From Thauera humireducens (GTDB lineage Bacteria; Pseudomonadota; Gammaproteobacteria; Burkholderiales; Rhodocyclaceae): a DNA stretch of 64,000 nucleotides. This document shows, piece by piece, positions 11,849-13,908 of this stretch. Position 1 is the stretch's first letter, and each line of letters begins with the position of its first letter. Where the stretch lies: positions 372,001 through 436,000 of the forward strand of contig NZ_CP014646.1 of the NCBI RefSeq assembly GCF_001051995.2, in the 5' to 3' direction. The notes beneath the pieces were generated by a model that searched no databases, was not told where the DNA came from, and worked only from the letters and a program-made list of their open reading frames with translations. The position numbers were made by a program, and so were the translations under genes.

Positions 11849-12847
11849 ATGAACAAGATCAAATGCGCCCTGATCGGTCCGGGCAACATCGGCACCGACC
11901 TGCTGTACAAGTTGAAGCGTAGCCCGGTGCTGGAGCCGGTGTGGATGGTGGGGATCGACGCCACCTCCGAGGGCCTGGCGCGTGCGCGCGAGATGGGCCT
12001 CAAGACCACCGCCGAGGGCGTCGACGGCCTGCTGCCGCATGTGGTCGCCGACGGCGTGCAGATCGCCTTCGACGCCACCAGCGCCTACGTCCATGCCGAG
12101 AACAGCCGCAAGCTCAACGAGCTGGGCGTGCTGATGATCGACCTCACCCCGGCCGCGATCGGCCCGTTCTGCGTGCCGCCGGTGAACCTTGCCGAGCACG
12201 TGGGCTGGCCGTCGCCGGGCCGCTCCCAAGACGGCCAAACCCCCTCGGGGGGCAGCGAACGCAGTGAGCGTGGGGGCCTGCTCTCCGAGATGAACGTCAA
12301 CATGGTCACCTGCGGCGGCCAGGCCACGATCCCGATGGTCGCGGCCGTGTCCCGCGTGCAGCCGGTGGCCTACGGCGAGATCGTCGCCACCGTGTCGAGC
12401 AAATCGGCCGGTCCGGGCACGCGCAAGAACATCGACGAGTTCACCCGCACCACCGCGGGCGCGGTCGAGAAGGTGGGCGGCGCCAAGAAGGGCAAGGCCA
12501 TCATCATCCTGAACCCGGCCGAACCGCCCCTGATCATGCGCGACACGGTGCATTGCCTGACCGAGACCGAACCGGACCAGGCCGCGGTCACCGAATCCAT
12601 CCACGCCATGATCCGCGAAGTGCAGAAGTACGTCCCCGGCTACCGCCTGGTGAATGGCCCGGTGTTCGACGGCAACCGCGTCTCGGTCTTCCTCGAAGTC
12701 GAAGGCCTGGGCGACTACCTGCCCAAGTACGCCGGCAACCTCGACATCATGACCGCGGCCGGTGCGCGCACCGCCGAGATGTTCGCCGAGGAGATCCTCG
12801 CCGGGCGCCTGAAACTCGAATCCAACCGCGCCACGCTGGTGGCCTGA
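11849..12847 (+). CDS. dmpF: Acetaldehyde dehydrogenase (acylating), with an in-frame insertion
   Basis: This NAD- and CoA-dependent enzyme converts the acetaldehyde released by DmpG into acetyl-CoA. The Rossmann motif GPGNIGTD lies at residues 10-17 and the catalytic cysteine is C155 in [10 protein letters not shown]. The protein is 332 residues, against about 305-312 in the family. The excess is a block of about 27 residues after NLAEH (residues 118-147), rich in Gly, Ser and Arg ([20 protein letters not shown]), replacing only about four family residues. The reading frame stays intact on both sides. The block maps to a GC-rich palindromic repeat annotated separately and lies just before the active-site cysteine, so activity or channelling with DmpG could be altered. 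The gap before it (11749-11848) has no clear element. Confidence 0.93.
12203..12283 (+). repeat. GC-rich repeat element inserted in frame within dmpF
   Basis: About 81 bp with no counterpart in usual dmpF genes. It contains the palindrome CCCCCTCGGGGGG (12240-12252), then GCAGCGAACGCAGTGAGCG (12252-12270) and a further G-run (12272-12276) that could also pair with the C-run. From memory, very similar elements are common between genes in Burkholderiales and related genomes. I did not see another copy in this window. Boundaries are estimated from protein length only. Confidence 0.75.
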
Positions 12848-12876
12848 GCGGCGACCGAACGAAGGAGATGAAGAAC

Positions 12877-13908
12877 ATGGAACTTCGCGGCAAGAAGATC
12901 ACCGTCCACGACATGACCCTGCGCGATGGCATGCACCCCAAGCGCCACCTGATGACGCTCGAGCAGATGAAGACGATCGCCGTCGGCCTGGACGAAGCGG
13001 GCATCCCGCTGATCGAGGTCACCCACGGCGACGGCCTCGGCGGCAGCTCGGTGAACTACGGCTTCCCCGCCCACAGCGACGAGGAATACCTCGGCGCGGT
13101 GATCCCGCTGATGAAGCAGGCCAGGGTCTCGGCGCTGTTGCTGCCGGGCATCGGCACGGTGGACCACCTGAAGATGGCGCACGAGATCGGCGTGTCGACC
13201 ATCCGGGTGGCCACCCACTGCACCGAGGCGGATGTCTCCGAGCAACACATCGGCATGGCCCGCAAGCTTGGCATGGACACCGTCGGCTTCCTGATGATGG
13301 CCCACATGAACAGCCCCGAAGGGCTGGTCAAACAAGCCAAGCTGATGGAGAGCTACGGCGCCAACTGCATCTACGTCACCGACTCGGCCGGGCACCTGCT
13401 GCCCGACACGGTCAAATCCCGCCTCAGCGCGGTGCGCGATGCGCTCAAGCCCGAGACCGAACTGGGCTTTCACGGCCACCACAACCTCGCCATGGGCGTG
13501 GCCAACAGCCTCGCCGCGCTCGAAGTCGGTGCCACCCGCATCGACGCGGCGGCCGCCGGGCTGGGTGCCGGGGCGGGCAACACCCCGATGGAAGTCTTCA
13601 TCGCGGTGTGCGACCTGATGGGGATCGAGACCGGCGTGGACGTGTTCAGGATCCAGGACGTGGCCGAAGACCTGGTGGTGCCGATCATGGACTTCCCGAT
13701 CCGCATCGACCGCGACGCGCTCACGCTGGGCTACGCCGGGGTGTATGGCTCCTTCCTGCTGTTCGCCAAGCGCGCCGAGAAGAAGTACGGCGTGCCCGCG
13801 CGCGAGATCCTGGTCGAGATGGGCCGGCGCGGCATGGTCGGCGGGCAGGAGGACATGATCGAGGATACGGCGCTGAATCTGGCGCGGGCGAAGGGGATTG
13901 CAGCATGA
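12877..13908 (+). CDS. dmpG: 4-Hydroxy-2-oxovalerate aldolase
   Basis: A 343-residue class II aldolase of the HMGL/DRE-TIM family. It splits 4-hydroxy-2-oxovalerate into pyruvate and acetaldehyde, and forms a bifunctional complex with DmpF that channels the acetaldehyde. The metal-binding motif TLRDG(MH) is at residues 14-20 and the metal histidines lie in GFHGHHN. The ATG at 12877 has GGAG nine bases upstream; the in-frame ATG at 12868 directly touches that GGAG. Its stop overlaps the dmpH start (ATGA). Confidence 0.95.

Follow-up and report, generated by a model that had tools for sequence, protein, structure and literature searches.

REP elements are small intergenic hairpin repeats that have no transposase gene of their own and with which RAYT (Y1) transposases are associated. 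Rickettsia palindromic elements (RPE) are palindromic repeats found in frame in unrelated metabolic genes, and orthologues can carry the insert at the same place (PMC10969869, PMC3767692). As first reported, nearly half of RPE lie in genes (PMC10969869), and the part of PMC3767692 drawn on here leaves open whether hotspots exist for RPE and their Wolbachia counterparts. For the Betaproteobacteria, the passages of Hot et al. (2011, PMC3110155) cited here describe the Beta-proteobacterial Repeat Element (BRE) as a G+C-rich repeat with a full length of 75-91 bp that forms tandem arrays with few bases between units. Its hosts, according to the same passages, include Azoarcus, Rhodoferax and other Comamonadaceae, and its copies are mostly intergenic, with some repeats "located entirely within coding sequences" (PMC3110155).

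Here, we analyze a dmpF gene for acetaldehyde dehydrogenase in a 64,000-nucleotide stretch of the Thauera humireducens genome, which we call the window. An earlier note made from these letters had proposed that a dispersed repeat of the Betaproteobacteria sits in frame inside dmpF and forms a loop in its product. Copies of the repeat elsewhere in the genome, an insert-free paralogue of the gene and a loop in the AlphaFold2 model all lend support to this proposal.

Results and discussion

The dmpF gene of the window and its inserted block

The window gene matches the family profiles NF006157 (466.3 bits, cut-off 166) and TIGR03215 (464.8, cut-off 282.25) as well as the Pfam dimerisation domain, and its features are collected in Table 1. 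We take C155 to be the catalytic cysteine, a role known for the family. A second dmpF in the window genome, L021, encodes 308 aa and is insert-free; its DNA is 96% identical to that of the window gene over 561 bp on one side and over 354 bp on the other, and it reads HVG-KG-EMNV where the window gene reads HVG-[27 residues]-EMNV. The earlier note had counted about 27 extra residues and placed them at 12203-12283. The 27-codon block is indeed present, though its true span, 12206-12286, lies one codon further right, and the net gain over L021 comes to 25 residues rather than 27. Each dmpF of this genome belongs to a dmpF-dmpG-like pair, one at 11849-13908 of the window and the other at L021:1000-2981. 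That the block is an assembly or sequencing artefact has a negligible probability, given that the window genome is a single contig and that an insert occupies the same site in other genome records.

Table 1. Coordinates of dmpF, its inserted block and the neighboring gene, in window positions
Feature	Position	Strand	Basis
dmpF, acetaldehyde dehydrogenase (acylating), 332 aa, with in-frame insert	11849..12847	+	ORF and family profiles
Inserted block, 27 codons (W120-S146), replacing KG of the genome's own insert-free paralogue	12206..12286	+	Comparison with L021 and 103 nine-residue homologues
First hairpin stem, left arm TGGCCGTC	12206..12213	+	Pairing and covariation
Loop GCCGGGCCGCTCCCAA, with a pyrimidine run one base longer than in most non-dmpF copies	12214..12229	+	Copy alignment
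First hairpin stem, right arm GACGGCCA	12230..12237	+	Pairing and covariation
C/G palindrome CCCCCTCGGGGGG, the second hairpin, nearly constant among the copies compared	12240..12252	+	
Third segment AGCGAACGCAGTGAGCGTGGGGGC, lineage-variable tail and repeat end	12254..12277	+	
Junction codons CTG CTC TCC (LLS) outside the repeat core; L-[LF]-x here in 9 of 12 carriers	12278..12286	+	
Codon of the presumed catalytic cysteine (C155), nine residues past the last inserted residue	12311..12313	+	Invariant in 43 aligned sequences
dmpG-like gene, partner aldolase, just downstream; start ATG 12868 or 12877	12868..13908	+	Named by MTLRDGMH motif

The block belongs to a dispersed repeat, probably BRE

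The earlier note had suggested a search for further copies, and such copies are found. The repeat portion of the block matches five other places in the window genome (C1:2799208, 3182513, 2368776, 737918 and 620798; E 7.3e-13 to 0.0078), and 120 of the 199 family genomes, the window genome included, match it at E<=0.01. Given these matches in the genome and in the family, the repeat nature of the block is more than chance. The copies follow a common plan, in which a variable first stem around GCCGGGCCG(C/T)CCCAAG is followed by a nearly constant C/G palindrome and by a variable third segment ending in GTGGGGG. We judged the intergenic placing of the window-genome copies by eye, from their printed flanks, and by a codon-position test: several copies fit snugly between the stop of one gene and the start of the next, and the test flagged only one frame, of 173 aa and untypical composition, at L006. 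At four loci (L004, L006, L007 and L008) the repeat end GGAGGCCTGACATG could, by eye, supply the ribosome-binding site of the next gene.

Tandem arrays, and copies of about 75-91 bp, are found in genomes G060, G199 and G202, and the repeat is also present in replicons of Burkholderia, Paraburkholderia, Variovorax, Acidovorax and Azoarcus, mostly, among the 30 of 102 records listed, at sites where no gene is annotated. By its size, composition, arrays, hosts and location, rather than by a comparison of letters, we consider the repeat to be probably BRE. First-stem arms differ between loci and between genomes and, by eye, are mostly still complementary; in one tandem array with eleven listed copies (L068, G060:C1:889858-890739) they are nearly identical within the array.

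A literature search by repeat name and sequence words matched only the BRE paper (PMC3110155), and in the literature on the enzyme, or on coding insertions together with palindromes and Betaproteobacteria, we found no report of such an insert, as judged by title and start of abstract. In 12000-12500 all Rfam families stay below their gathering scores, and no match to the block at E<=1e-3 was found among 50,697 phage records. On plasmids, 251 records match a 76-residue piece of DmpF that spans the insert, none of them over 80% of the piece, so that no plasmid record shows the insert.

Inserts at the same codon in 12 genes

The earlier note had also suggested an alignment with homologues. Among 119 distinct dmpF-family ORFs, the spacer is exactly nine residues long in 103, seven in one and 34-37 in 12, with three unreadable by motif. 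The earlier note had counted against its own proposal the case of a block carried by most orthologues and without copies elsewhere; this is not what we observe, since an insert is present in 12 of the 119 ORFs and the repeat has many other copies. All 12 of these distinct genes carry it at one site and in one frame. With related inserts at the same codon in 12 genes, the insert in dmpF is no single event private to the window genome.

We scanned a species-genome collection (84,980 species) for the pattern GTGGGGG followed within 27 bases by the conserved MNVNMV codons. This gave nine stretches, and in all nine the spacing is the same and the insert is in frame. These carriers belong to Zoogloea (three), Azoarcus sp. 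Aa7, a Zoogloeaceae MAG, a Rhodoferax MAG (two genes), a Burkholderiales MAG and the Proteobacteria MAG G199. Genome searches added two carriers from a paralogue family (motif MNVNMISCAGQ), L112/L164 of Zoogloea dura and L271 of G216, which are 75-76% identical to the window protein and have the insert at the corresponding codon. Some of the carriers come from a scan aimed at the insert, and 12 carriers of 115 sequences therefore give no frequency. Within the window genus, no other carrier was found among the matches covering the site (29 genomes searched, 22 with a match), and no match among those listed was split elsewhere in dmpF (genomes searched and matched: 199 and 68, 23 and 20, 89 and 25, 29 and 22). 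A dmpG-like start follows dmpF in 9 of the 11 carriers tested; L096 stops at a contig end, and L093 has no dmpG-like start within 400 bp.

In-frame copies in other genes

MAG G199 has 53 repeat hits, 27 of which lie in open frames that look coding on both sides, and the repeats occur in both orientations. This survey covered 40 fetched stretches (L293-L332) chosen from the repeat hits, with coding called from G+C by codon position and from profiles. Of 23 ORFs scanned against NCBIfam or Pfam, 20 match families across the repeat or on both sides of it, with the second side resting on the stretch count in 12 of the 20. One continuous profile match runs across the repeat in eight ORFs: gcvP, metX, uvrA, recG, an RND transporter, a heavy-metal ATPase, an FAD-linked oxidase and a molybdenum hydroxylase subunit. 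Twelve ORFs have at least two profile stretches, the best of which ends or starts no more than about a dozen residues away from the repeat; these are radA, mpl, uvrD, hrpA, glnE, a thiolase, an acyl-CoA dehydrogenase, an acyl-CoA ligase, an ABC permease, a nitronate monooxygenase, a FemAB-like protein and a carbon-nitrogen hydrolase. The remaining three are a second uvrA-type gene, with different UvrA domains on the two sides, and a phosphoglycerate kinase and a nucleotidyltransferase, both of which match on one side only. The dmpF carrier of G199, L093, comes from record JAFEEB010000026.1. An lpxB-like ORF of another genome, G168 (L091:1106-2344), has an antisense-oriented repeat in frame at residues 257-284 and two profile stretches, the best of them covering 10-250.

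The first stem stays paired inside the reading frame

Since the fold energy of the block alone is ordinary (DNA z -1.33, RNA z 0.26), we judged the palindromes by covariation. Over the 11 distinct inserts, 84 of 88 first-stem cells are paired, and with the partner slid along only 19-49% of cells stay paired. Five of the eight pairs are changed on both sides, in 14 cells as compared with 3.9 in shuffles (0 of 500 as high), a comparison in which related sequences can exceed shuffles without any structure. Two of the five covariation measures gave weaker results, with 5 of 500 shuffles as high for both-side-changed pairs and 68 of 500 for further pair types. Between L096 and L099, all five stem substitutions preserve pairing. 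Possible causes of the pairing are selection for a DNA or RNA structure, palindrome-correcting mutation, or the insertion, more than once, of sub-types whose stems were paired beforehand.

Carrier proteins are probably functional

Purifying selection acts on the bodies of the carrier genes. In ten carrier pairs dN/dS ranges from 0.014 to 0.165, where values for the window gene against other carriers may include time before insertion, and in the pairs likeliest to share one insertion event it is 0.022 (L112/L271), 0.035 (L097/L101), 0.014 (L095/L101) and 0.040 (L095/L097). The residues classed as invariant are unchanged in all 43 proteins of the alignment, nine of which are carriers. In four of the eight carrier genomes searched, namely the MAGs G199, G201 and G204 and Azoarcus sp. 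Aa7 (G203), no insert-free dmpF was found at E<=1e-40. As dN/dS is low and these four genomes have no insert-free dmpF at that threshold, dmpF proteins with the insert are probably functional, and we infer that the loop is translated.

An AlphaFold2 model of the window DmpF (mean pLDDT 84.9) places the loop between helix 110-117 and strand 149-152, with residues 124-144 below 50 and ten-residue blocks on both sides at 77-97. According to the model, the insert would form a flexible loop and leave the fold without visible damage. Structures of DmpF/BphJ acetaldehyde dehydrogenases (1NVM, 4JN6) have the same fold outside the loop, and the best eleven structure matches show 51-55% identity. In three alignments, the sequences of the solved relatives differ in passing from the helix that follows NL.EH to the strand preceding the cysteine without such a loop.

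It seems very improbable that the insert copy of dmpF is merely a decaying or non-functional duplicate. The presence of a second, insert-free dmpF in the window genome would suit decay; this genome is one of several carrier genomes that retain such a gene, and in these the copy with the insert could be dispensable. Yet the window body differs from its paralogue by a dN of 0.017 and a dS of 0.110, its conserved residues are kept, and the L112/L271 ratio given above is low, while the four carrier genomes with insert genes only (three of them MAGs) also argue against decay.

Gene tree and insert tree

In a gene tree of 115 sequences, 12 of them carriers, built with the spacer columns removed, the insert trait takes 10 changes, at least eight of which are forced by starred branches. 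Shuffled carrier labels take 11.6 changes on average, with 32 of 500 shuffles as few as the observed 10, so that carriers are barely more clustered on this tree than expected from shuffling. The sister of the window gene is the insert-free paralogue from the same genome (95*), and the sister of L096 of Zoogloea dura is likewise the insert-free L202 from that genome (99*). A single clade is rejected for all 12 carrier bodies (AU p=7.3e-5), for the 10 dmpF-proper carriers (p 1.4e-5) and for the three Zoogloea carriers (p 0.0017). One clade of the window, L098 and L100 bodies is not rejected (p 0.52), which leaves the number of separate acquisitions uncertain.

In the insert tree (75 columns), the 11 distinct dmpF inserts lie on one side of a branch, facing 71 other copies (support 88, not starred), and no shuffle in 500 gives a value as low for this grouping; shared coding constraint could mimic such kinship. 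A longer pyrimidine run in the loop is present in all 11 dmpF inserts as compared with 3 of 64 other copies; a further 3 of these 64 carry an additional A in its place. Close non-dmpF copies to the window/Azoarcus insert type are 97% identical over 38 bases and 91% identical over about 64 bases (two copies). That the dmpF inserts would be one lineage of the repeat, spread over genes that do not form one clade, is supported but not proven. Distances between inserts are moderately correlated with distances between bodies (Mantel r 0.40, p 0.013), and tail types roughly follow carrier clades. We looked for recent transfer together with flanks and found that identity is not consistently raised over a tract around the insert; third-position differences beside it are similar to those in the rest of the gene.

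Flanking direct repeats of at least eight bases were found at 20 of 86 copies, as compared with about 4 expected from shuffled flanks. They belong mostly to tandem arrays, with one single copy, in gcvP of G199, and dmpF is absent from this set. The gcvP copy (L104/L293) is flanked by the 13-base direct repeat CCATCAGCGCGGC and has GTGGGGG before it on both sides, a possible trace of the insertion mechanism. An upstream GTGGG was considered as a target motif; it was found in some dmpF genes and in gcvP and was absent in the paralogue, and the idea was dropped.

How the insert may have reached dmpF

We consider it very probable, taken as a whole, that a copy of a three-hairpin, non-autonomous repeat of the Betaproteobacteria (probably BRE) joined dmpF at one codon position. 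It would have entered in a stop-free frame and yield, on translation, a flexible loop rich in Gly, Ser and Arg a short way ahead of the catalytic cysteine, a loop that the enzyme would tolerate, and the dmpF inserts would constitute one repeat lineage that is now patchy in dmpF of several genera and in one paralogue family. For its spread we infer either re-insertion at the site or an old insertion followed by recombination and loss. We give these two routes equal weight, each of them a possibility that falls somewhat short of an even chance. A single old insertion in an ancestral dmpF would have been inherited and then lost on many occasions when the gene recombined with paralogues or homologues lacking the insert, with paralogues in one genome homogenised by gene conversion. 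Such a history agrees with the grouping of the inserts, with tail types and distances that go along with those of the carriers, and with the clade of window, L098 and L100 bodies that is not rejected. In several congeners, dmpF pairs cluster by genome, which suggests gene conversion and is what this history would give. It must, however, accommodate the eight or more changes forced on the gene tree, and it sits poorly with the L112/L271 inserts, which are 87-88% identical to the window and L098 inserts in bodies that differ by 19-23%. These two genes also retain codons specific to the paralogue, both immediately to the left of the insert and 18 bases to the right of it, and the missing tract of raised identity speaks against the same history.

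Flanks that are not co-converted are instead what repeated site-specific insertion would leave, if one branch of the repeat preferred a conserved dmpF-family site in a homing-like manner and brought no flanking DNA. An identical codon in 12 genes of two paralogue families, together with the grouping of the dmpF inserts, also fits this route, as do inserts in Zoogloea dura and Rhodoferax-type MAGs that are unlike the other copies of their hosts (at best about 80%) and a Zoogloea tail seen only in dmpF across 23 Zoogloea genomes. But the repeat has no known transposase or nuclease, no target-site duplication is present at dmpF, and the correlation of insert with gene distances is unfavorable to this route. 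The Y1 transposase family (PF01797), present in 7 of the 9 genomes searched, has no match in the window genome (G000), which also counts against it, or in G216. Independent chance insertions, each drawn from the copies of its own host and retained only where frame and site permit, would be in keeping with the many in-frame copies in other enzymes of MAG G199 and with the likeness of the window insert to host-type copies (97% over 38 bases). We nevertheless find them improbable, as the inserts group with each other and not with the copies of their hosts, and where the Zoogloea tail type is found, in 2 of 23 Zoogloea genomes, it is confined to dmpF. In its boldest form, site-specific insertion would involve a BRE branch specific for one dmpF-family codon, a homing-like translated mini-element spreading between genera and into a paralogue without flanks, whose first-stem hairpin, as DNA or RNA, would still matter; this extension we regard as rather doubtful.

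Comparison with known systems

In-frame palindromic repeats, best known from Rickettsia and Wolbachia, are now seen in Betaproteobacteria, at a fixed site in a central catabolic enzyme. What stands out is this fixed site, the seemingly dmpF-specific lineage, and a hairpin that stays paired while apparently being translated. Related repeats at one spot of dmpF in several bacteria suggest that repeat DNA can add new protein loops, and a 2024 review, in the part cited here, considers the same mechanism of protein evolution conceivable in other prokaryotes (PMC10969869). A dmpF with and a dmpF without the loop in one genome offer a natural pair for studying the effects of insertion on the enzyme and on aldehyde channelling, and the fixed site makes the mode of movement of the repeat testable.

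Of the systems described to date, BRE resembles the present repeat in length, G+C richness, arrays, hosts and intergenic bias, while its description, in the passages cited here, is without a recurrent dmpF site and without an analysis of coding copies (PMC3110155). REP elements are likewise small hairpin repeats between genes. A homing element would be expected to leave co-converted flanks, and the dmpF insert differs from it in this respect. RPE are about 100-150 bp long and belong to the Rickettsiales, whereas the present repeat is 75-90 bp, G+C-rich and betaproteobacterial, and unlike with RPE, the insert is absent from most dmpF orthologues. RPE and their Wolbachia counterparts are nonetheless the closest precedent, likened here by description rather than by sequence: they too are palindromic repeats lying in frame within genes, like the dmpF insert and the copies in MAG G199.
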